A model generated the notes under the pieces. The model searched no databases and was not told where the DNA came from. It worked only from the letters and a program-made list of their open reading frames with translations. DNA of 35,698 nucleotides from Neptunomonas japonica DSM 18939 (lineage in GTDB: Bacteria; Pseudomonadota; Gammaproteobacteria; Pseudomonadales; Balneatricaceae): assembly GCF_000422765.1 (NCBI RefSeq), contig NZ_AUGR01000030.1:1-35698 (forward strand), given 5' to 3'. A program made the position numbers and the translations under genes. Position 1 is the first letter of the stretch. Each line of letters opens with the position of its first letter. Below are positions 16,231 to 26,363 of the stretch, piece after piece.

Positions 16231-17589
16231 ATGATGCAAAAGATTCCAGTCCAAATTATCGATGCTTCTACGCTTGCCGTTGATAGCAAAATCCATGTTC
16301 GTTTAACCGAAGGTTTGTTTCAGCAAGCCCGTCGTTTAATCAGTTGGCCATTGCTGTTTGTTTACTTCGCCTTGGTATGGCTACAAGTTGATGGGCAACC
16401 CTGGTTGTTATTTGATTTTGGGCAGCGACGTATACTGCTTTTTGGAACCTCTCTGTCATGGCATGATTTACCATTACTGGCAGGAATCATGATTGCAGGC
16501 ACCAGCTTATTATTTTTTATGGCGGTAGGCTGGGGACGTGTTTGGTGTGGTTTCGCTTGTCCACAGAGCATCTGGACATGGGTATTTATCCGCATAGAAC
16601 AATGGACTGAAGGGCGCGCTAATATCCGTGCACGCCAAGAACGCCAACCGTTACGCGGTATCCTGCTTTTGCGTCGTATCAGTAAGCATTTTTTATGGAT
16701 TAGCTTCGCTCTTTTTACAGCAGTGACCTTTACCGGCTACTTTATTCCCATTCGCGAACTCGTAGCAGACTTATTCACATGGCAAGCAGGCACAGGCACC
16801 CTTGGCTGGTTGGTCTGCATGGCAGCCCTGACTTACCTTAATGCAGGGCTCGTAAGAGAAAAGATATGTTTACACGCATGTCCATACTCTCGCTTTCAAG
16901 GCGTCATGTTTGATGACCAAACGCGTACCGTTAGCTATGATAAAAGTCGAGGAGAGCCTCGTAGTAATAAACGATCTTCTGACGGTAGCAGCGGCGACTG
17001 TGTAGATTGCGGCCTTTGTGTGCAAGTGTGTCCAACAGGAATTGATATTAGAGATGGCCTGCAAGCCGCCTGTATCGATTGCGGTGCCTGCATTGATGCC
17101 TGCGATGCCGTGATGACAAAAATACAACGCCCCAAAGGCTTAATTCGGTTTTGCTCCGAAGACCAATTAGCAAAAATTAGCAGTCCACTTTGGCGACCTC
17201 GCCTGATCGCTTACCTATTAGTATCGCTGACAACCATCGCGGCTGTAGTTTATGGGTTTACCGATAAAACAGAACTGTTAGTAGAGATCAGACGAGACCG
17301 GGGAGCACTGTTCCACCAACTTGATGAAGAAACAGTCTGCAACCGTTACTTATTTAAGGTAGAAAGTTTCAACCCAGAGCTTCAAGCATTAAACCTGTCA
17401 GTTTCGGGAATAACAGGCGCATACCTAGAAGGCATGAAAAGAATAGAAAAATCTAATTTTGCGCAATGGCTACCTTATAGAGTGTGTGCTCAACCCACGT
17501 CTACGTCAAATAATCAGCTCCAGATACACTTTCAGGAGAACAACTTCGAAACAATTAAGAAGACTACTTTTATAACGTCAGCTCGCTGA
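16231..17589 (+). CDS. ccoG: CcoG/FixG/RdxA-type iron-sulfur membrane protein (cytochrome cbb3 oxidase accessory)
   Basis: Five membrane helices with WGRVWCGFACPQSIWTW in the NapH/FixG-type domain, then a ferredoxin module (CVDCGLCVQVCPTGIDI ... CIDCGACIDACDAV) giving two 4Fe-4S clusters. A membrane anchor and an Ig-like periplasmic C-terminal domain (about 350-452) follow. CcoG reduces Cu(II) during assembly of cbb3 oxidase. Normally it sits beside ccoNOPQ or ccoIS. Here none is present and its divergent neighbour is a MocR regulator, so it may be a second copy with another task. The C-terminal domain ends slightly shorter than in the usual 470-residue proteins. Confidence 0.87.
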   Translation: MMQKIPVQIIDASTLAVDSKIHVRLTEGLFQQARRLISWPLLFVYFALVWLQVDGQPWLLFDFGQRRILLFGTSLSWHDLPLLAGIMIAGTSLLFFMAVGWGRVWCGFACPQSIWTWVFIRIEQWTEGRANIRARQERQPLRGILLLRRISKHFLWISFALFTAVTFTGYFIPIRELVADLFTWQAGTGTLGWLVCMAALTYLNAGLVREKICLHACPYSRFQGVMFDDQTRTVSYDKSRGEPRSNKRSSDGSSGDCVDCGLCVQVCPTGIDIRDGLQAACIDCGACIDACDAVMTKIQRPKGLIRFCSEDQLAKISSPLWRPRLIAYLLVSLTTIAAVVYGFTDKTELLVEIRRDRGALFHQLDEETVCNRYLFKVESFNPELQALNLSVSGITGAYLEGMKRIEKSNFAQWLPYRVCAQPTSTSNNQLQIHFQENNFETIKKTTFITSAR

Positions 17590-17828: not shown

Positions 17829-18308
17829 TTATTTATACGTTGGGCTGACTAAATCCCTAAAAGTATGGGCGTTATTAATGTCAAATTGCGCATTTTTAAC
17901 ATTGCTTATGTCGATACTGATTGTGTTCAACGTTTTTATGACTTGATTATCTAATCTATTTTGTGTGACAGAATTCAACACCATATTAGTAAAATCTGAC
18001 GCTAAGTCAGATATTTCTGTACGACTACGGCTTAACTCAGTATTTTTTGGTAGCTCAAAATATGAGTAAAATGACTCAATACCATTTTGATATACTCTTT
18101 TATCAAAACTAAAATCTACTACTAAGCCGCTTGGTAAAGTAAAACCACCACGTAAGCTATCCAACTCTGCATCACCTACTTTCTCCCAATCGGCACCAAC
18201 CTGTATTTGATCTAAGGCTTCTGCTGCAAAAACACTGTTTTCTAAAAAACTAGCCATTAGCACGCTACATATAGACAGCGCAGGGATAAAAACACTATGA
18301 GTATTCAT
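17829..18308 (-). CDS. Secreted protein with ELDSLRGG double-glycine motif (putative C39 peptidase substrate)
   Basis: The 159-residue product begins with a hydrophobic signal (residues 5-28, ending VFAAEA). A short acidic segment and ELDSLRGG (48-55) follow. After the GG comes FTLPSGLVVDFSFDKRVYQN, a beta-rich piece, and then a Ser/Thr/Asn-rich region. The ELxxLxGG pattern resembles double-glycine leaders cut by C39 peptidases, and such a peptidase is encoded 29 bp upstream. I recall hypothetical proteins with RGGF...GL..F....VY.NG near C39 genes in other Proteobacteria, but I cannot name a characterised member. GGGGAG precedes the ATG. It is the last gene of the leftward cluster. Confidence 0.75.
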   Translation of the reverse strand: MNTHSVFIPALSICSVLMASFLENSVFAAEALDQIQVGADWEKVGDAELDSLRGGFTLPSGLVVDFSFDKRVYQNGIESFYSYFELPKNTELSRSRTEISDLASDFTNMVLNSVTQNRLDNQVIKTLNTISIDISNVKNAQFDINNAHTFRDLVSPTYK

Positions 18309-18337
18309 CGAAATTCTCCCCTATAAAAATACTACCC

Positions 18338-19012
18338 CTAAAAATCATAATTACCTGGCTGTAATAGATTAAATGCACCCAAACTTGCACGACTAATGAC
18401 TGTGTCCAAAGGAGCCTTAACACGAACGTTCCACTCACGGGAGTCTTGAAAATGCTCAGAAGCGATGCTGTTATCATCTCTTATTAAAAATAGTATTCGC
18501 TTCTCCCACATCTTTATAAAATCACTACGCGGTACTACTTTCACACCTACAGATGGGTCCCCTACCAACACTTCAGTATTACTAGCTCCTTTAATAATAA
18601 CAAAATGGAGGTACCCATTATTATTTATTATTGTTATAGCAGGGACTTTAAGATTATCGAGGCTCATTCTGAATCCATCTGATCGATATCCACGTCTTTC
18701 TAAAAATCGTTTCATATCAAGCAATGAAAACCCTTGCTGCTGAATTTTTAACTTATCACCTCTTTTAAACATATCTAAAAATACATTTTGTTCACTAATA
18801 TCATCTTCATAATGGAACGTAAGAAGGCTGGCTAGCGCTGCGGATCCACAGCTAAAATCATATTTCTGTTTATAAACGGTTGTGAATTTTCGTTCATTAA
18901 AACTCACGACGGGAATACTATAGTTCCCCCCTACTGAAAATCCATTCAACTCAATCGCTTGAGTTTTTAAATGAATAAAAAACAACAAAAATATAAATAC
19001 TAATACTCTCAT
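18338..19012 (-). CDS. Secreted C39-family cysteine peptidase (FapD-like)
   Basis: A signal peptide (MRVLVFIFLLFFIHLKTQA) is followed by one C39 domain with no ABC transporter. The visible triad is Cys55 (QKYDFSCGSAALASLL), His136 (NGYLHFVIIKG) and Asp152 (VLVGDPSVG), with Gln49 as the likely oxyanion residue. C39 domains normally remove double-glycine leaders. Stand-alone periplasmic ones include FapD of Pseudomonas Fap amyloid operons. An ATG at 19030 overlaps the upstream stop by 4 bp. I prefer 19012, six codons later, because AAAGGA sits 6 nt before it and a cleaner signal results. Genes on both sides encode ELDxxRG(x)GG proteins, its probable substrates. Confidence 0.85.
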   Translation of the reverse strand: MRVLVFIFLLFFIHLKTQAIELNGFSVGGNYSIPVVSFNERKFTTVYKQKYDFSCGSAALASLLTFHYEDDISEQNVFLDMFKRGDKLKIQQQGFSLLDMKRFLERRGYRSDGFRMSLDNLKVPAITIINNNGYLHFVIIKGASNTEVLVGDPSVGVKVVPRSDFIKMWEKRILFLIRDDNSIASEHFQDSREWNVRVKAPLDTVISRASLGAFNLLQPGNYDF

Positions 19013-19026
19013 AAATAGTCCTTTCT

Positions 19027-19389
19027 TCATGGAGATATAGTTACATTAATAATGGTTGAGTCCTGGATAATGACATTATTTCCTGTATTTTGTATAATAG
19101 AAAAAACACCACTGGCTTCAGAAAATGAACCTTTATCAATGATATTGAAGCCAGTAAAATTATTGTTAGCTGTATTGTTTGATAGCTCAGCCTCAACATT
19201 TGAATTTACAATGCTTGTTATATCAATAATTCCACCACGACCACGAACTTTATCCAGCTCATCCAATAGTACTGCATCAGGATTAACTAAAAACTGATTT
19301 ACTTCCTGCGGTAACGCTCTTGCTGATCCAACATAAAAATAAACTAATGGGATAATAAATAAGTAAAGTTTTCTGTTAAACGCTATCAT
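19027..19389 (-). CDS. Small secreted protein with ELDKVRGRGG motif and amyloid-like C-terminus
   Basis: The frame is open to 19464, but AAGGAGAATGTG immediately before ATG 19389 fixes the start, giving 120 residues. A signal peptide (residues 1-24) is followed by LLDELDKVRGRGG (41-53), again a double-glycine-like leader. The C-terminal part is polar and beta-prone, with SGVFSIIQNTGNNVIIQDST (93-112), the kind of Q/N/G/V-rich strand found in bacterial functional amyloid subunits. By position it could be a minor or nucleator subunit to the large repeat protein upstream. It overlaps the possible first ATG of the C39 gene by 4 bp, so the pair is translationally coupled. Confidence 0.75.
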   Translation of the reverse strand: MIAFNRKLYLFIIPLVYFYVGSARALPQEVNQFLVNPDAVLLDELDKVRGRGGIIDITSIVNSNVEAELSNNTANNNFTGFNIIDKGSFSEASGVFSIIQNTGNNVIIQDSTIINVTISP

Positions 19390-19411
19390 CACATTCTCCT
19401 TTTTATTATAT

Positions 19412-19438
19412 AGGTTGCCGGCAATGAGCCGACAACCT
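19412..19438 (-). other. Intra-operon hairpin between the repeat protein and the next gene
   Basis: In the leftward transcript, AGGUUGUCGGC pairs along all 11 positions (one U-G) with GCCGGCAACCU around a 5-nt loop. It stands between the stop of the large repeat gene and the next ribosome site, and has no following U-run in that direction. Such hairpins commonly protect the upstream message or reduce read-through, giving more structural subunit than peptidase. Confidence 0.6.
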
Positions 19439-19476
19439 TTTTCAGGTGATGAATAAATCAACACATATTATTATAG

Positions 19477-20844
19477 CTATTGGTTTACATTCACATTTCC
19501 TTGGAAAGAAACCTGCTGTTGTGTCAAAGCGTTAGCCCCAGCATTTTGGACAGTTTGGTTGACACCTGCAGTTCCATTGAAGGTATTTGTCATATTGTTT
19601 TCACCGCCTCCTAAGCGACCTGCCCGAGATGGATAACCATACGTATTACCAGTAACCGTACCCATCAAGTCTGAGTTGTTTACACTGTAAGTCGTTGTTG
19701 CTGATCCTCCTCCATTTGCTGCAGAGGTACCAGTACCACTAGCGTTAGAATAACTATTATCACTATTATCACTATTATCTACTGTGGCTGTACTGTTATT
19801 GTTTGCTGCTGCAGCCCCCATAGCGGTTGCTGATGCGGCACTGTTGTCGCTGTTGTTACTATTATCCGACGTTGCTGTGCTGTTATTGTTTGCAGCGGCT
19901 GAACCGGCAGCACTGGCATTTGCCATACTGTGATCTGAACTATCAGAGTTATCAGAGGTTGCTGTACTGTTATTGTTTGCTGCTGCAGAACCAGGAGCAC
20001 TGGCATTCGCCATACTGTGATCTGAACGATCAGAATTTGCTGTACTTCCATTGTTTGCTGCTGCATCGGCGGCTGTAGCAGAACTGTTATCAGAGTTATC
20101 CGAACTATTGCTGTTATCGGAGTTATTGCTGTTATCGGAATTATTGTTGGCTACATTATCGACAGCCACATCCACAGTTACATCATTATCGGCCGTGCTG
20201 TTGTTACTATTGTCTGAGTTATTAGTGTTATCGGTACTGTTATCAGAGTTGTTACTATTGTCATCATTATCAGCAGTACTATTATCAGAGTTATTAGTAT
20301 TATCCATACTATTATCTGAGTTATTGCTGTTGTCATCGTTGTCAGCAGTTCTGTTATCGGAGTTATTGCTGTTATCGGAGCTGTTACTGTTGTCATCGTT
20401 GTCAGCGGTGCTGTTATCCGAGTTATTGGTGTTATCTGAATTATTGCTGTTATCGGAGTTGTTACTGTTGTCATCGTTGTCAGCAGTGCTGTTATCCGAG
20501 TTATTGGTGTTATCTGAATTATTGCTGTTATCGGAGTTGTTACTGTTGTCATCGTTGTCAGCAGTGCTGTTATCCGAATTATTGGTATTATCGGAGTTGT
20601 TACTGTTGTCATCGTTGTCAGCGGTACTGTTATCCGAGTTATTGGTATTATCCGTGTTGTCTGTACCTACAGCCGAGGAGTTCTCATTAGCGGTACCTGA
20701 TCCATCTCCACTCGTCTCAGAACTGGCTGTAGCCGTTTGTGTTTGTGCCGAATCCGTCGCTGTATTGGTCGGGTTTGCCCACGCATTAGTGGTTGTTCCC
20801 AAAATAAGCGCAATACTAGCTGCTAGCAATTTAGTATTATTCAT
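19477..20844 (-). CDS. Secreted Asn/Asp/Ser-rich repeat protein, putative amyloid/biofilm structural subunit
   Basis: The 455-residue product has a signal peptide (about 1-23, ending NAWA). An N-terminal Thr/Ser-rich stretch is followed by residues 62-255, built almost only of N, S, D and T. That block has six TADNDDNS modules, 20-26 residues apart, and a seventh degenerate one. Residues 256-375 hold about four Ala-rich repeats (AAANNNSTATSDNS pattern). The unique end (380-455) includes GTAGVNQTVQNAGANALTQQ, which resembles the GVN...GxNNQQ ends of FapC-type amyloid proteins. The repeats are strongly acidic and cysteine-free, so calcium binding or extended surface structure is possible. GGAG precedes the ATG. 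The function is inferred from composition and neighbours. Confidence 0.8.
   Translation of the reverse strand: MNNTKLLAASIALILGTTTNAWANPTNTATDSAQTQTATASSETSGDGSGTANENSSAVGTDNTDNTNNSDNSTADNDDNSNNSDNTNNSDNSTADNDDNSNNSDNSNNSDNTNNSDNSTADNDDNSNNSDNSNNSDNTNNSDNSTADNDDNSNSSDNSNNSDNRTADNDDNSNNSDNSMDNTNNSDNSTADNDDNSNNSDNSTDNTNNSDNSNNSTADNDVTVDVAVDNVANNNSDNSNNSDNSNSSDNSDNSSATAADAAANNGSTANSDRSDHSMANASAPGSAAANNNSTATSDNSDSSDHSMANASAAGSAAANNNSTATSDNSNNSDNSAASATAMGAAAANNNSTATVDNSDNSDNSYSNASGTGTSAANGGGSATTTYSVNNSDLMGTVTGNTYGYPSRAGRLGGGENNMTNTFNGTAGVNQTVQNAGANALTQQQVSFQGNVNVNQ
19720..20661 (-). repeat. Two arrays of in-frame coding repeats
   Basis: Array 1 (20080-20661) has units of about 60-78 bp, each containing the TADNDDNS codons. 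Two adjacent 26-residue units are identical in protein. Array 2 (19720-20079) has about four Ala/Asn-rich units near 90 bp. Unit lengths are multiples of three. The opposite strand shows a spurious Leu/Ser frame caused by the same repeats. Confidence 0.85.
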
Positions 20845-20944
20845 TTTAATGCTCCATTTAATTATTTTTATCTTCGTGACTTATTGATGAATTCCTGAAT
20901 AAAAACCCGACCACCTCCATACAGCTAGGGTGATCTCCCACATC

Positions 20945-20980
20945 TTTAGAATCCATAAATTAATCTTAAAAATCCATAAA
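20945..20980. promoter_or_regulatory. Direct repeats, candidate response-regulator boxes
   Basis: TTTAGAATCCATAAA (20945-20959) and TTAAAAATCCATAAA (20966-20980) repeat with a 21-bp period, two helical turns. A weaker relative, TTAAAAAATCTCTTAA, starts at 20999, about three turns further on. OmpR-family regulators bind direct repeats on one helix face, and such a regulator is encoded alongside. The boxes lie about 100-155 bp before the repeat-protein ATG. Confidence 0.45.
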
Positions 20981-21259
20981 ATAAAAATTAAAAAACCCTT
21001 AAAAAATCTCTTAATTTTTATATAAACAATTATTGCAACACTATGATTTATATGAAAATATTAATTAAAAAATATAAATCACTAACTTAATCTAGTACTT
21101 AAATTCCTAGAACATGATTTTTATCAAGAAAAAATAATAGAAATTATTTTTTTAACAACCATTAATAAAACCAAGATAAACTTCAATAAAAACAATATTT
21201 ATAACGTTTCACTATATCAATACAAAAATTAAATATATCAAAAAACCACATGAGCAATA

Positions 21260-21289
21260 TTGATATAACCATAGCCAACACGATAGAAT
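21260..21289 (+). promoter_or_regulatory. Putative sigma-70 promoter of the response regulator
   Basis: TTGATA, an 18-bp spacer and TAGAAT, 30 bp before the ATG. Both hexamers are close to consensus, but the region is so AT-rich that chance matches are likely. Confidence 0.4.
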
Positions 21290-21318
21290 AGAATTAAAAA
21301 CAGTTACAGGATTTCAAC

Positions 21319-22197
21319 ATGGATAACAGTAAAAATCCTATATTGCTAATATCAGACGACAAGTTCATTCTTGGATTGTTAAAAGGATACGGGCTTGCAA
21401 ATCAATTAGATATAAACACAAAATCCGCTTTAGAAAAAATAGATCAAAATGACAAAAAATATAACTATAAATTAATAATTTTCGACATAAGACACCTTGA
21501 TAGAGCATTTACAAAAGAACAACTAAAAGCATTAAAAACAATTCACAATAATAAAAAAACACCTATTTGTGCTATTTCTCATGATACAAACAATAAAGAC
21601 AGTCAAGATGAGTCATGGGTAGATCTTTATCTAGAAAACCCCATAATGGAAAAGCTGGATAGTTATTTACGAGAACACTTCAACTATAACTTTCATCCAT
21701 TCCCTGATAGAAGAAATAATGACCGAAGACATAATAAAAGACGCTCTGAAGATAGCCATAAGTACCTCACAACAGACTCGCCGATTAATAATTCAGAAAA
21801 CCACGACCTAACACAACATGTACATTTCGAAAACTATAAAGTCGGACCTTTCACCGTTAATATCAGCAGCCAATCTGTTTATTTTAAAGAGAAAAATCTA
21901 AAGTTAACCCGTAAAGAATTTAAACTATTTTCACTTCTTGCAGCCGATACTGAGCACGTATTTTCCTCTCAAGAAATAATCAACCATCTATGGAAAGAAA
22001 ATGGCCGCGCAAACAAGTCTGATCTTTACCAATATATGCACTTGTTACGGAAAAAAATTGAAATCGACCCGTATAATCCACACTGGGTATTAACGCTAAA
22101 AGGAATTGGATATAAGTTAAACACCCAACCACTTTATGATGTTAATCAAAAAGAAGCAGAGTCAAAAGATATCAACATAAATCATATACTTCAGTAA
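21319..22197 (+). CDS. Orphan OmpR-family response regulator with degenerate receiver
   Basis: A receiver domain occupies residues 7-118, with the acidic pair Asp13-Asp14, phosphoacceptor Asp56 (LIIFDIRH) and Ser87. The conserved Lys near 107 is replaced by Asn (LENPI instead of xKP), so phospho-signalling may be altered. A linker contains the basic repeat DRRNNDRRHNKRR (130-142). The C-terminal OmpR/PhoB winged helix runs from about 175 to 275 (LTRKEFKLFSLLA ... LRKKIE ... VLTLKGIGYKL). No histidine kinase is nearby. It lies between the repeat-protein operon (divergent) and the outer-membrane gene (convergent), so it probably controls that locus. Codon use is AT-rich like the locus. Confidence 0.85.
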   Translation: MDNSKNPILLISDDKFILGLLKGYGLANQLDINTKSALEKIDQNDKKYNYKLIIFDIRHLDRAFTKEQLKALKTIHNNKKTPICAISHDTNNKDSQDESWVDLYLENPIMEKLDSYLREHFNYNFHPFPDRRNNDRRHNKRRSEDSHKYLTTDSPINNSENHDLTQHVHFENYKVGPFTVNISSQSVYFKEKNLKLTRKEFKLFSLLAADTEHVFSSQEIINHLWKENGRANKSDLYQYMHLLRKKIEIDPYNPHWVLTLKGIGYKLNTQPLYDVNQKEAESKDININHILQ

Positions 22198-22222
22198 AAA
22201 AGCCATGTTTTATTACATGGCT
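22194..22222 (-). terminator. Intrinsic terminator of the outer-membrane gene
   Basis: In leftward reading, AGCCATG/CATGGCT with an 8-nt loop is followed by a T-run (complement of A 22195-22200). It lies 26 bp past the stop of the beta-barrel gene and at the end of the convergent regulator gene. Confidence 0.75.
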
Positions 22223-22248
22223 ATATAATGAAATAATATGTGATTAAT

Positions 22249-23529
22249 TTATAAAATTGACATTGGCACTCTCAAACTAAGTCTTACATCCTGTGCATCC
22301 TCAGTTGTTCCAATACCTAGCGATAAATTAATATTTTTTTCTGGTGAAAGTTTTAAAGAATAGCCAATGGACAACTGCCCAATATCCAATACACTTCCTT
22401 TTACACTCATGTCATCTATCTTTGATTCAAAAACATGTTTGTGTGAATAACCAAGGCTAAATGAGGAATGCTCATTTAACGAGAAACCTAACCCAAAGCT
22501 CATTCCCAACGTATCACCAGGATCCACTGTACCGATACTTTCATCAGTCTCAGCATTATAGCTATAGCTTAAATTACCAAAAAACACTCCCGGGTCTGTT
22601 GGATACAACGCCGTTAGGCTTGGTTGAATACTTATATATCCAGAACCGGTCGGTAACTCCGTTGGAAACTCTGCTCCCGCCGTTGATTGAACATATTCAA
22701 CCTCAAAAGGGCTAGTACCAGTTGGCATAGTAACTAATAAGTTACCCACAAAAATTGGCCAACCATCATTACCGTTATTTAATTGATAGCGTGCAGCAAA
22801 CTCCAAATCACCAATACCACCACCGCTGGCATCAAATATTTCGTCCTCACCAACACCAATACTTACAGGCCGTGATCTTTGACTATCTGACCGATAAACA
22901 TAAGGTAATTTAAATTCGAGCTCTAACCGATCGGTCATACCGTAGCGCGCAGTTAAACTCGCAATTGTGCTATGGCGCTTAATCTCTCGTAAATCAATGA
23001 GCCCTACCGCTAATGCCGGTAAAAATGTGAATGCATCTAGGAAGACTCTATTGTTCGAGTTATATGAATACTCAATAGAAGGCTCTAGAATCAATTTTCC
23101 TTTTTTAGTTAACACTCCACCCACGGTATTACTCAGTCTAGGAATTTCTGGCGGAGTAGTATCCTTCACTCTTTTAGGGGGGCGTTGCCCGACAGGAGAA
23201 GACGGTAAATTTCTCTGTTGTGAAGCAATCTGATATTGGCGCTTAGCCGAAGGCTTTGGGGCCACTTTATTGGATATGGTATCGAGCCGAGACTTCAACT
23301 TATCTATCTCATTTCCTTGTCGTGCTATAATTTCTCTTTGCTTTTCAAACTCTCTTTGTTGCTCAGCCACTAATTGCTGATATTGCTTTAAAATAGCTTC
23401 GTTAGAAATACTAACTTCCGAAAACACATCTCCTGAATACAAGACCAATGTATAAAAAATCGCGCCGCATGGAAAAAACTGACGAGATACTTTTTTAATA
23501 TCATTTTTATTAGATTTAATACCCTTCAC
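22249..23529 (-). CDS. Coiled-coil plus beta-barrel outer-membrane protein (FapF-like exporter candidate)
   Basis: The frame starts at a GTG with AAGGG 6 nt upstream; 426 residues. A signal peptide (about 12-38) is followed by a coiled coil (44-86, EAILKQYQQLVAEQQREFEK onward), a Pro-rich linker (90-131) and NTVGGVLTKKGKLILEP (134-150). About 275 residues of alternating amphipathic strands then make an outer-membrane barrel of the Phenol_MetA_deg-like transporter group, ending LSLRVPMSIL. A trimeric coiled coil plugging a barrel is the plan of FapF, which exports Fap amyloid. Sequence identity to FapF cannot be claimed by eye. The GG at 137-138 at the coil-barrel junction might also be a C39 site. 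It is monocistronic, with its own terminator. Confidence 0.75.
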   Translation of the reverse strand: MKGIKSNKNDIKKVSRQFFPCGAIFYTLVLYSGDVFSEVSISNEAILKQYQQLVAEQQREFEKQREIIARQGNEIDKLKSRLDTISNKVAPKPSAKRQYQIASQQRNLPSSPVGQRPPKRVKDTTPPEIPRLSNTVGGVLTKKGKLILEPSIEYSYNSNNRVFLDAFTFLPALAVGLIDLREIKRHSTIASLTARYGMTDRLELEFKLPYVYRSDSQRSRPVSIGVGEDEIFDASGGGIGDLEFAARYQLNNGNDGWPIFVGNLLVTMPTGTSPFEVEYVQSTAGAEFPTELPTGSGYISIQPSLTALYPTDPGVFFGNLSYSYNAETDESIGTVDPGDTLGMSFGLGFSLNEHSSFSLGYSHKHVFESKIDDMSVKGSVLDIGQLSIGYSLKLSPEKNINLSLGIGTTEDAQDVRLSLRVPMSIL

Positions 23530-24131: not shown

Positions 24132-26363
24132 ATGACTACAACGAAACAAACAATTTATTACACCCTTACCGACGAAGCTCCATCACTGGCAACCTGTTCT
24201 TTATTACCTATTGTAAGAACATTCACAGCCGCTGCTGATATCGATGTTAAAATCAGTGACATTTCATTAGCAGGCCGTATTCTTTCTGCTTTCCCCGAAA
24301 AACTAACTGACGAGCAGCAAGTTGCAGATGGCCTAGCTTTTCTAGGTAAGCTTACTCAAGACCCTTCTGCTAACATCATTAAGCTTCCTAACATCAGTGC
24401 CTCTATTCCTCAGCTAAAAGCGTGTATTGCTGAACTTCAGACTCAGGGTTATGACATTCCTGATTACCCTGAAGTAGCGCATAGCGATGAAGAACAAGCC
24501 ACTCAAGCCCGTTTTGGCAAGCTTCTAGGTAGTGCTGTAAACCCAGTACTACGTGAAGGTAACTCTGACCGTCGCGCACCTGCAGCTGTTAAAGCATTTG
24601 TTCGCAAATTCCCACACAGAATGGGTAAGTGGAGCAAAGCGTCACGCACTCACGCTGATTATATGCGCGGTGGCGACTTCTTCTCTAGCGAGCAATCTAC
24701 AACCGTTGACAAAGAAACCGATGTCCGCATTGAGTTTGTTGCTAAAGATGGCAAGGTAACCGTTAAAAAAGAATTCCAGCTGGAACAAGGCGAAATTATT
24801 GATGGTATGTTCATGAGCTGTAAAGCGCTTCGTGAATTCTTTGAAGATAGCCTAAATGATGCAAAAGAAACCGGTGTTATGTGGTCTTTACATGTTAAAG
24901 CTACCATGATGAAAGTTTCACACCCTATCGTATTTGGCCATGCGGTTACTGTTTTCTACAAAGACCTTTTTGAAAAACACGCTGAGTTGTTTGCAAAGCT
25001 TGAAGTTAATCCAAACAACGGTTTGGGAAGCGTCTACGACAAAATTGCCAGCCTACCTCGCTCTAAGCGCGAAGAGATCGAAGAAGATATTCAGGCTTGT
25101 TACTCTACCCGCCCTGAAATGGCGATGGTTGATTCAGTAAAAGGTATCTCTAACCTACACGTACCTAGTGACGTAATCGTTGATGCTTCTATGCCTGCAA
25201 TGATTCGTAGCTCTGGTCAGATGTGGGGGCCAGATGGTAAGCAAAAAGATACTAAAGCAGTTATGCCAGAAAGCACATACTCGCGTATCTACCAAGAAAT
25301 GATTAACTTTTGCAAAACTAACGGTGCATTTGATCCAACAACAATGGGTACTGTGCCTAACGTTGGCTTAATGGCGAAGAAAGCAGAAGAATACGGTTCA
25401 CATGATAAAACGTTCGAGCTAGCTGAAGACGGCATCATGCGTATTGTTGATACAGCAGGTAACGTGCTGACTCAACACGAAGTAGAAAAAGGCGATATCT
25501 GGCGCGCATGCCAAACCAAAGATGAGCCTGTTCGTGACTGGGTAAAACTTGCTGTAACACGTGCTCGTCAGTCCGACACTCCTGCCATTTTCTGGTTAGA
25601 CCCTGAACGTGCCCATGACATGGAGCTGGCTAAAAAAGTACGTGCTTATCTACAAGACCACGATACAACAGGCCTAGATATCCGCATTGCGTCTTACGAC
25701 GAAGCAATCCGCATTTCTATGGAACGCCAGATTCGTAGCCAAGACACTATCTCAGTAACAGGTAACGTACTACGTGATTACCTAACTGACCTATTCCCAA
25801 TCATGGAGCTAGGGACATCAGCAAAAATGCTATCTATCGTACCAATGCTTAAAGGCGGTGGTATGTACGAAACAGGTGCTGGTGGTTCAGCTCCTAAGCA
25901 CGTACAGCAGGTAGAAGAAGAAAACCACTTACGTTGGGATTCTCTCGGCGAGTTTATGGCGTTAGCAGTATCTCTAGAAGATATGGGCATTAAGAACGAT
26001 AACCCACGTGCTACAACGCTATCTAAGACGCTTGACCAGGCAACTGGAAAACTTCTAGAAAACAACAAGTCTCCTTCACGCAAAACGGGTGAGCTAGATA
26101 ACCGTGGTAGCCATTTCTACCTAGGTATGTACTGGGCTCAAGCCGTTGCTGAGCAAAATGACGATAAAGAACTGGCAACTTTATTTGCGCCATTAGCTAA
26201 AACACTGGCTGAGAATGAAGCAACTATCGTAGCTGAGCTTAGTGCTGTACAAGGTACACCAGCTGCCCTGGATGGCTACTACCACGCTAAACGCGACACG
26301 GTTAAACGTGTAATGCGTCCAAGCACAACATTAAATAGCGCCTTAGCTTCTGTTCATCAGTAA
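24132..26363 (+). CDS. icd: NADP-dependent isocitrate dehydrogenase, monomeric type
   Basis: The 743-residue protein is of the large monomeric IDH family (IDH-II), unrelated in length to the homodimeric 416-residue enzyme. It catalyses oxidative decarboxylation of isocitrate to 2-oxoglutarate in the TCA cycle. It matches throughout: [18 protein letters not shown] near 138-155, [44 protein letters not shown] and [20 protein letters not shown]. Ser, Asn and Arg in SDRR bind isocitrate. The gene is flanked by its own leader and terminator, so it is a single-gene unit. Its GC content is higher than that of the preceding locus. Confidence 0.97.

Follow-up and report, generated by a model that had tools for sequence, protein, structure and literature searches.

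The closest described relative of the system analyzed here is Fap of Pseudomonas, in which fapABCDEF form one operon, the subunits FapB and FapC contain three imperfect amyloid repeats, FapD is a periplasmic C39 peptidase and FapF a coiled-coil/barrel exporter. In the cryo-electron microscopy structure of FapC, each repeat forms one cross-beta layer (PMC12392863); FapB serves as the nucleator for FapC, as CsgB does for CsgA (PMC12822426). A 2025 review with a genome survey concluded that Fap is evolutionarily "fixed", with almost invariably three repeats (PMC12822426). According to a 2018 review, homologues of fapD and fapF also co-localise in five additional phyla (PMC6173800), and the co-occurrence of this core pair is already known. 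Here, we present an analysis of a locus in Neptunomonas japonica DSM 18939, located on contig NZ_AUGR01000030.1 (the window analyzed is this entire 35.7-kb contig of 35,698 nucleotides, in a genome of 4.39 Mb). The locus encodes a FapD-like C39 peptidase, a FapF-type barrel protein, the secreted repeat protein REP, the small secreted protein GG145, a further secreted protein of a class named A159 after its 159 amino acids (aa), and an OmpR-type regulator. Based on sequence comparisons, we found that REP and GG145 carry one related module each, whereas FapB and FapC carry three repeats. We conclude from these comparisons that the window family is a sister branch to Pseudomonas Fap with its own one-module subunits and not a classic fap operon; because the defining Fap feature, i.e., three-repeat subunits, fails, we file it as a variant of FapF/C39 secretion.

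A single C-terminal module in REP and GG145

REP (455 aa; 19477-20844, minus strand) starts with a Sec signal identified by eye (MNNTKLLAASIALILGTTTNAWA) and has no GG leader. The protein consists of 57% Asn, Ser and Asp (N+S+D) with a sequence entropy of 3.11 bits, and is encoded by 18-nt repeats (hexapeptides, e.g., NNSDNS), with periods of 18, 60, 78 and 138 nt among those reported by Tandem Repeats Finder. The median entropy was 3.37 bits in the REP set and 3.90 bits in the FapC set. The initial annotation had described REP as an N/D/S repeat protein; secreted N/D/S-rich repeats are indeed present, but this region is replaceable: the window protein and its Colwellia counterparts (up to 70% N+S+D) have an N/D/S-rich arm, the 901-aa Motiliproteus protein a Gly-rich one. 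REP lengths in the set used for counting modules range from 133 to 739 aa, some of these proteins perhaps being cut by the calling of open reading frames (ORFs). Judged by sequence conservation, the N/D/S region is an exchangeable arm, and the conserved part of REP is a single C-terminal module.

This module comprises the last 44 residues of REP (19480-19611, minus strand), includes GTAGVNQTVQNAGANALTQQQVSFQGNVNV, and is the sole such unit found in the protein. It aligns with the 44 C-terminal residues of GG145, and we derived the consensus G-h-x-x-h-x-Q-N-x-G-x-N-x-h-x-Q-x-x-x-h-x-h-x-h. A hidden Markov model (HMM) of the REP module matched exactly once in 36/36 REP proteins (its training set) and in 36 of the 39 GG145-type small proteins, and it matched 0/20 FapC and 1/19 FapB proteins. 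Conversely, an HMM of the Fap repeat found three copies in 19/19 FapB and 19/20 FapC proteins (its training sets), none in the 36 REP proteins, and one copy each in two of the 39 GG145 proteins. Shuffled controls gave 0 matches with both HMMs; one REP row (L061, a LuxR-type protein) was excluded from the module count and L134 was excluded from the GG145-module profile. By hhalign, GG145 matched the REP C terminus at 96.5% (reversed control, 0.15%) and A159 matched GG145 at 97%, while A159 and the REP module matched at only 0.35%. The GG145-module HMM gave 93 matches at E<1 among 8119 ORFs and 1 in the reversed set; these matches comprise 39 GG145 proteins, 15 of the 51 A159-type proteins, 13 of the 19 FapB proteins, five REP proteins and 21 ORFs that were not assigned. 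Consistently, GG145 matched FapB by hhalign at 78% (reversed control, 0.08%); comparisons to a set of only four excised Fap repeats, for which the pattern was too strict, gave 0.14% and 0.19%. NCBIfam and Pfam models had no match for GG145 in 38 family members.

GG145 was first called as an ORF at 19027-19464 (minus strand) with a GTG start at 19464. Because AGGAGA lies five bases upstream of the ATG at 19389 and approximately half of the homologues as called have 115-125 aa, the true start is most likely this ATG, giving a protein of 120 aa (19027-19389) with a leader and one C-terminal amyloid-like module, which we propose as the minor subunit or nucleator. The initial annotation had noted this small secreted protein with an amyloid-like C terminus; the start of its gene most likely has to be moved.

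Export core and candidate cleavage sites

Two proteins make up the export core. The barrel protein (22249-23529, minus strand) consists of a signal region, a glutamine-rich coiled-coil-like stretch at about residues 40-95 (by eye), a linker and a beta barrel, and contains PTG motifs. Q-layers within the coiled coil have been described for all FapF homologues (PMC6173795) and the PTG motif for FapF (PMC6173800). The protein matched the NCBIfam FapF model with 1.5e-41 and 142.6 bits over profile positions 21-418 of 420, under the curated cut-off of 700, and the FilC model with 1e-23 and 84.3 bits, under its cut-off of 630. In addition, it matched the sequence of the FapF crystal structure over residues 128-423 (phmmer, 3.7e-31). 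The Pfam match is to a Phenol_MetA_deg-type barrel (1.2e-5); we rejected an unrelated phenol-degradation transporter, as the Pfam name might suggest, on the far stronger FapF match. By sequence, the barrel protein is therefore a FapF homologue.

The C39 peptidase (18338-19030, minus strand) has a signal peptide identified by eye and matched Pfam Peptidase_C39 (1.2e-17), the NCBIfam FapD model (9.1e-38, 129.7 bits; curated cut-off, 330) and the FilB model (4.5e-31, 108.2 bits; cut-off, 475), under the cut-off in both NCBIfam cases. The catalytic residues expected of C39 enzymes are Gln, Cys, His and Asp; they correspond to Q55, C61, H142 and D158 and were invariant in the five sequences compared. 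The protein is thus a periplasmic C39 peptidase of the FapD-like kind in which the catalytic residues are retained, and export by FapF/FapD-type machinery is well supported by these homologies. The initial annotation had likened the C39 peptidase to FapD and the coiled-coil barrel to FapF, and both likenesses are upheld. The curated cut-offs of the FapD and FilB models (NF058616 and NF050078; 330 and 475 bits) were reached by 0/274 genomes of the class and 0/194 genomes, respectively; therefore, both names may be missing from many annotations.

The double-glycine leader is a substrate feature of PCAT/ComA-type ABC (ATP-binding cassette) exporters and is characterized by hydrophobic residues at -4 and -7 and Glu at -8. 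The window locus shares the C39 domain and a double-glycine leader with these exporters; however, the window C39 peptidase is a stand-alone protein with a signal peptide and no ABC domain. It matched the ComA peptidase domain with 6.4e-6 and the peptidase domains of PCAT-type exporters more weakly. A159 (17829-18308, minus strand) has a Sec signal identified by eye and a C-terminal QN motif. Its leader (DAELDSLRGG followed by F; 18144-18173, minus strand) reads D-A-E48-L49-D-S-L52-R53-G54-G55-F56, in which E-8, L-7, L-4, R-3, G-2 and G-1 fit the double-glycine pattern at a site behind the Sec-like signal. Across 37 sequences, R53, G55 and F56 do not vary, and conservation reaches at least 90% at L49 and G54. 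GG145 has a leader in the same frame, E-L-D-K-V-R-G (motif DELDKVRG, 19240-19263, minus strand; E44, L45, V48, R49, G50), which is the proposed C39 recognition site in this protein; among 38 sequences, L45 is invariant and G50 is at least 90% conserved. The pattern [LM]..[LIVMAQSHTY]R[GA] was found in 43/51 A159-type proteins (shuffled mean, 2.6), 25/39 GG145 proteins (shuffled, 0.9) and 0/37 REP proteins; among Fap proteins, it was found in 8/13 FapA and 1/20 FapC. AlphaFold models of low confidence have a short helix just before R-G at residues 46-52 of A159 and 42-48 of GG145, which is no more than suggestive.

Classic FapE contains L-x-x-h-R-G-[RK]-[FY] at the position matching the A159 leader in 23 sequences, partly by construction because the set was selected by RG[RK][FY]. 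A159 matched FapE by hhalign at 93.6% over the 28 columns that hold the leader; the sole NCBIfam match of the family is to the FapE model, in 6/37 members with a best E of 0.0011, and the window A159 itself had no match to this model at E <= 1. The leader region of GG145 matched the FapA set at 86%, while the value for A159 and FapA was 37%. Position, leader and these weak profile matches agree, and A159 most plausibly represents the counterpart of FapE. The initial annotation had seen GG motifs in two proteins; A159 is probably not an extra GG-motif protein. Moreover, we suggest E-L-x-x-hydrophobic-R-G as a candidate cleavage site for FapD-type peptidases. In Pseudomonas, Cys38 of FapD is needed for the secretion of FapC, and none of the peptides observed for FapE came from its first ~70 residues (PMC5557850). 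The target of FapD has been described as unclear: Fap proteins are said to lack canonical C39 sequences, yet FapE has GG and GA motifs (PMC5557850, PMC6173800). FapF was also considered as a target in 2017 (PMC5557850), and the 2025 review states that FapD is thought to process the N terminus of FapE and FapF (PMC12822426). These published data fit a cleavage of the leader, and what our analysis adds to them is one specific, conserved putative site.

Among other systems, Fil, which is linked with Acinetobacter, has the same core pair of a C39 peptidase and a FapF-like barrel ("putative pilus", NCBIfam FilB/FilC). However, in five Fil-type loci, the C39 and barrel genes are followed by a gene for a 532-557-aa protein and a further gene, often lipoprotein-like, and three of these loci encode additional secreted proteins without repeats upstream. 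There was no GG145-module match among the matches listed for these five loci, in which the C39 profile scores were 109-143 bits. The window pair scored under both curated cut-offs and differs in its neighbourhood, and we do not count it among FilB/FilC. In two Fil-type loci (L206:7360-10474 and L205:8071-8901), secreted proteins have a D-x-x-[LM]-x-x-[VA]-T-G-Q-like motif near the mature N terminus, which seems to follow the same leader principle in a third branch. Curli resembles the window locus in having a major and a minor subunit (CsgA and CsgB) with one repeat type in common; no CsgG-, CsgE- or CsgF-like match was obtained in the Pfam and NCBIfam scans, which covered the six proteins and not the genome at large. 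Likewise, no FapA match was obtained for the six proteins in the NCBIfam scan, in which the presence of a FapA model was not checked. Some fap operons have no FapA (PMC12822426).

Conservation of the gene set, genomic context and regulator

A scan of named genomes with the C39 sequence only identified 43 loci in Neptunomonas, Methylobacter, Methylomonas, Methylomicrobium, Nitrosomonas, Colwellia, Paraglaciecola, Motiliproteus, Paraburkholderia, Acidocella, Sphingomonadales, Parvularculaceae, Pseudomaricurvus, Aestuariicella, one Eremiobacterota bin and three Aquificota-type bins. In 38 of these loci, a barrel of at least 73 bits was encoded within 3.4 kb of the C39 gene (in L058, which is counted here, that barrel belongs to a second, neighbouring C39-barrel pair); the five others are L053 (contig end), L072, L087, L088 and L089 (21 bits). 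Most of the loci show the order REP, small protein, C39, A159-like protein, barrel. Two further searches extended the sample. A FapD search matched 60 of 274 genomes of the class, from which 20 places were taken (11 classic and nine window-type neighbourhoods). A C39 profile search matched 38 of 398 genomes of the phylum in two score groups, i.e., 16 genomes with at least 176 bits and the rest with at most 151 bits; three of the 16 were already in the sample (the window, G187 and G127) and the other thirteen were added.

In a uniform tally with each genome counted once, we scored 64 window-type loci (42 + 9 + 13). This tally leaves out the three Aquificota/Hydrogenothermaceae loci L087-L089 (86-94 bits); L031 (a barrel with no C39 gene on its 4.7-kb contig) and the frameshifted L043 are in no tally, and L047, L048 and L078 are named copies of L029, L028 and L030. 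A barrel within 6 kb was present in 62/64 loci (40, 9 and 13 by subset), the small-protein (GG145) module in 56/64 (38, 9 and 9), an RGG/RAG-F leader protein in 58/64 (39, 9 and 10), REP-like composition in 59/64 (40, 8 and 11), and all four features in 48/64 (34, 8 and 6). Some of the missing features are due to contig ends or ORF calling and some are real. In the thirteen loci held out from profile building, which came from the later C39 search, the barrel was matched within 6 kb in 13/13 (one is a 162-aa fragment), the module in 9/13 and the RGG leader in 10/13. Many of the 42 loci are close relatives (eleven are labelled Methylobacter), and the counts are therefore not independent events; moreover, the test for REP-like composition is weak because 24/25 classic fap loci also pass it. 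Among these 25 classic loci, the GG145 module was found in 0/25, RG[RK][FY] in 25/25, R[GA]G[FY] in 1/25 and the barrel in 23/25. The co-occurrence of the gene set exceeds chance. The initial annotation had claimed six genes as a coherent set: all six are ORFs at the positions given there, and in distant genomes, the genes are mostly kept as a group. Neither of the two refuting outcomes that it had named, an unrelated transporter as the barrel (judged here by sequence) and dispersal of the genes in related genomes, was obtained.

Several loci deviate from this organization. In L187:5988-12465, the genes for REP, the module protein, C39 and the leader protein form a tandem duplicate (two cassettes with equal C39 scores) with one barrel gene. 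L189:5386-7116 looks decayed (C39, 183 aa; barrel, 162 aa), the module protein was not found in it, and it is perhaps a remnant of the system. L135:5673-6086 and L136:5306-5734 encode an extra small coiled-coil-like protein (137 and 142 aa, respectively) with a signal-like N terminus between the leader protein and the barrel. A Sphingomonadales bin (L085:3827-6074) encodes a tandem pair of REP-like proteins, with the module protein downstream. The window-type genes of a Methylobacter bin (L058:5509-7555) have a second, more distant C39-barrel pair immediately upstream, and no barrel of their own was found downstream.

Within the genus, the locus is present or absent as a block. Among the eight genomes of the genus that the barrel search listed, four have it. 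In the three besides the window, it lies between the same neighbours, which we take to be a CcoG-like gene (16231-17589 in the window) and a monomeric-type isocitrate dehydrogenase gene (24132-26363). In G076, of the same genus, these two genes are 435 bp apart with nothing between them, compared with 6.5 kb in the window, and the isocitrate dehydrogenase proteins are 96% identical. The block of N. qingdaonensis (L029) has one extra gene, encoding a 761-aa PAS-GGDEF-EAL-like protein (named from sequence motifs), between the CcoG-like gene and A159 (L029:2394-4679), hinting at a link to cyclic di-GMP.

In the window, REP, GG145, C39 and A159 follow each other in this order on the minus strand (the C39 start overlaps the GG145 end by 4 bases if the first ATG of C39 is used), the regulator gene is divergent from REP, and the barrel gene is convergent with the regulator gene. 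The GC content is 28-40% per 1-kb step within the locus (18-24 kb) and 43-49% in the flanks. The AT-rich, 474-bp region between REP and the regulator gene (20845-21318) is the presumed promoter region; promoter-like matches in it were no commoner than in shuffles. Where the regulator and barrel genes converge, a palindrome, AGCCATGTAATAAAACATGGCT (22201-22222), is a possible terminator and among five terminator-like sites found (shuffles, 3.5 +/- 1.9, a weak excess). An antisense ORF of 278 aa over the REP gene (20051-20887, plus strand) is most likely a by-product of low-complexity codons and not a gene.

The regulator (21319-22197, plus strand; 292 aa) has an OmpR-type winged-helix DNA-binding domain (Pfam Trans_reg_C, 5.2e-18), a degenerate receiver-like part and an Arg-rich linker with four invariant Arg. 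The Pfam scan gave no receiver domain at E <= 1, and no kinase gene was seen beside it. A clear relative lies beside 13 of the 43 loci, in either orientation. Comparing 15 relatives (those 13, the window and L027), we found strong conservation of the linker and the DNA-binding domain, while in some, another residue seems to take the place of the likely phosphoacceptor Asp; based on this pattern, the regulator is probably phosphorylation-independent in at least some members. A regulator relative was not found in the examined stretches of nine of the eleven Methylobacter loci, L086 has a weaker match to a different, longer-receiver regulator adjoining it, and in Motiliproteus, a sigma-54-activator-like gene (named from sequence) lies beside the barrel gene instead. 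The regulator is a lineage-specific partner outside the core. Of the proposed combination of C39, barrel and regulator, the C39-barrel pairing recurs in 38/43 loci, compared with 13/43 for a clear relative of the regulator. Similarly, the differences from fap that had been pointed out stand for gene order and repeat type, the embedded regulator being the part that is not core.

Assembly model, alternatives and significance

We consider it likely that the locus encodes secretion and assembly machinery of the FapF/FapD type, with REP, the long N/D/S repeat protein, as the building block of a fibre or matrix at the cell surface. In this model, REP, GG145, A159, the C39 peptidase and the barrel would enter the periplasm via Sec, as their signal peptides suggest. 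Based on leader conservation and the catalytic residues, the peptidase would recognise the E-L-x-x-hydrophobic-R-G leader of A159 and cut after RGG before F; probably, it also removes the GG145 leader. By analogy to Fap, processed A159, in the FapE position, would prime the FapF-like channel or become the base of the fibre. Unfolded GG145 and REP would pass through the barrel. Subsequently, GG145 would nucleate and REP polymerise via their homologous single C-terminal module, as FapB and FapC do with their repeats. With one module instead of three per subunit, each fibre layer would bear a single hydrophilic arm, which could reach several hundred residues; the resulting fibre would be hydrated and brush-like and may suit a biofilm matrix, adhesion or surface hydration. 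The atypical OmpR-type regulator would control the locus only in some lineages.

Several observations weigh against this model. The REP module matched whole FapC by hhalign at only 0.18% and the Fap-repeat HMM found no REP protein, leaving the kinship to the Fap repeats to run only via GG145 and FapB. The AlphaFold models are poor (mean predicted local distance difference test score, 59 for A159 and 54 for GG145), and the cross-beta module is putative; a single module may also be too little for an amyloid core. The leader pattern occurs in 7/19 classic FapB proteins as well (shuffled mean, 1.0), which the cleavage model does not predict. In GG145, the residue after R-G is mostly R, K, L, M or Q and seldom G, making cleavage less certain here than in A159. 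Only six of the thirteen held-out loci have all four scored features. Finally, cleavage, export, fibre formation and polymerisation, the brush architecture and the biological role are what we infer from homology.

A rival explanation that we regard as possible but unlikely is that the three proteins are exported as soluble or surface-anchored adhesin or hydration proteins and never form amyloid, in which case the C-terminal QN module would signal export or docking to the barrel or its coiled coil. Related QN motifs at the ends of all three secreted proteins (close between A159 and GG145 and between GG145 and REP, but not between A159 and REP), the single module copy per protein and the hydrophilic, low-complexity REP arm would all agree with such a function; the relation of the GG145 module to the amyloid repeats of FapB would not, and a major/minor pair with one common unit is typical of nucleated fibres. 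Even less probable in our view is a diverged classic fap operon with a degenerate FapC and nothing new in its working, although most of its steps are the same as in the fibre model and the two are not exclusive. The FapD-/FapF-like core, the FapE counterpart and the occurrence of classic fap operons in the same family would be expected from it. However, window-type genes recur in distant taxa with their own conserved subunits, the GG145 module was found beside none of 25 classic C39 genes, and we rejected a simple classic fap operon on the module counts. Moreover, on a C39 tree of 77 rows (47 RGG, 22 RG[RK], eight unlabelled), the leader type needs 2 changes, compared with a mean of 18.9 for shuffled labels (0/500 as low as 2); this tree is unrooted with long branches, and near-copies make any label cluster. 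Both types of C39-barrel pairs also coexist in G127, ~90 kb apart: a classic-scoring pair (L123; C39, 130 bits), for which the calls of the subunit genes were not clean, and a window-type pair (L139; 224 bits). Four of the 16 high-scoring phylum genomes (G127, G464, G514 and G550) have an additional C39 gene of lower score, which is Fil-type in G514 and G550. Very improbable is a bacteriocin-like system releasing GG145 and A159 as double-glycine antimicrobial peptides through the barrel, which would account for the leaders and the C39 peptidase; we rejected it because none of the six proteins is an ABC transporter, the leaders follow Sec-like signals, and a FapF barrel and a long repeat protein belong to the set.

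Altogether, the one-module subunits, the leader changes on the C39 tree and the coexistence of both pair types speak against a simple classic fap operon and agree with the original proposal of a new variant or distinct C39-dependent export system; the FapF relationship of the barrel speaks in the same sense. The family differs from Fap in its low-complexity arm, its RGG rather than RG[RK] leader, its order REP-GG145-C39-A159 with the barrel apart and the regulator between, rather than one fapABCDEF operon, and the OmpR-type regulator of some lineages. In a broader interpretation, on which our confidence is evenly balanced, it would be a third FapF/C39 branch alongside Fap and Fil, with representatives in Proteobacteria and in at least one bin of Eremiobacterota. 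Its one-module subunits would form a bottle-brush amyloid with a long, freely evolving hydrophilic arm on every layer, and periplasmic cleavage of the Sec-exported subunits at a double-glycine leader of the bacteriocin type would be a two-leader maturation that also applies to Pseudomonas FapE.

In the open-access literature, we recognised no description of the window-type family, preprints and most subscription journals being outside this scope; Methylobacter, Colwellia and Nitrosomonas are unmentioned in the main texts of PMC3792158 (2013) and PMC6173800 (2018). Two Fap surveys kept only gene clusters with matches to the FapB/C repeat (PMC12822426, PMC12392863). With 0/36 REP proteins matched by our own Fap-repeat profile, such a filter would probably miss a one-module family and may be the reason why this sister family went unreported. 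For the question raised in 2017-2018 of what FapD cuts, the family offers a candidate answer: a leader that is conserved in two subunits and, with R/K in place of the last G, in FapE. Moreover, with the same export core as Fap but one module per subunit, it bears on the claim that Fap is a "fixed" three-repeat system.

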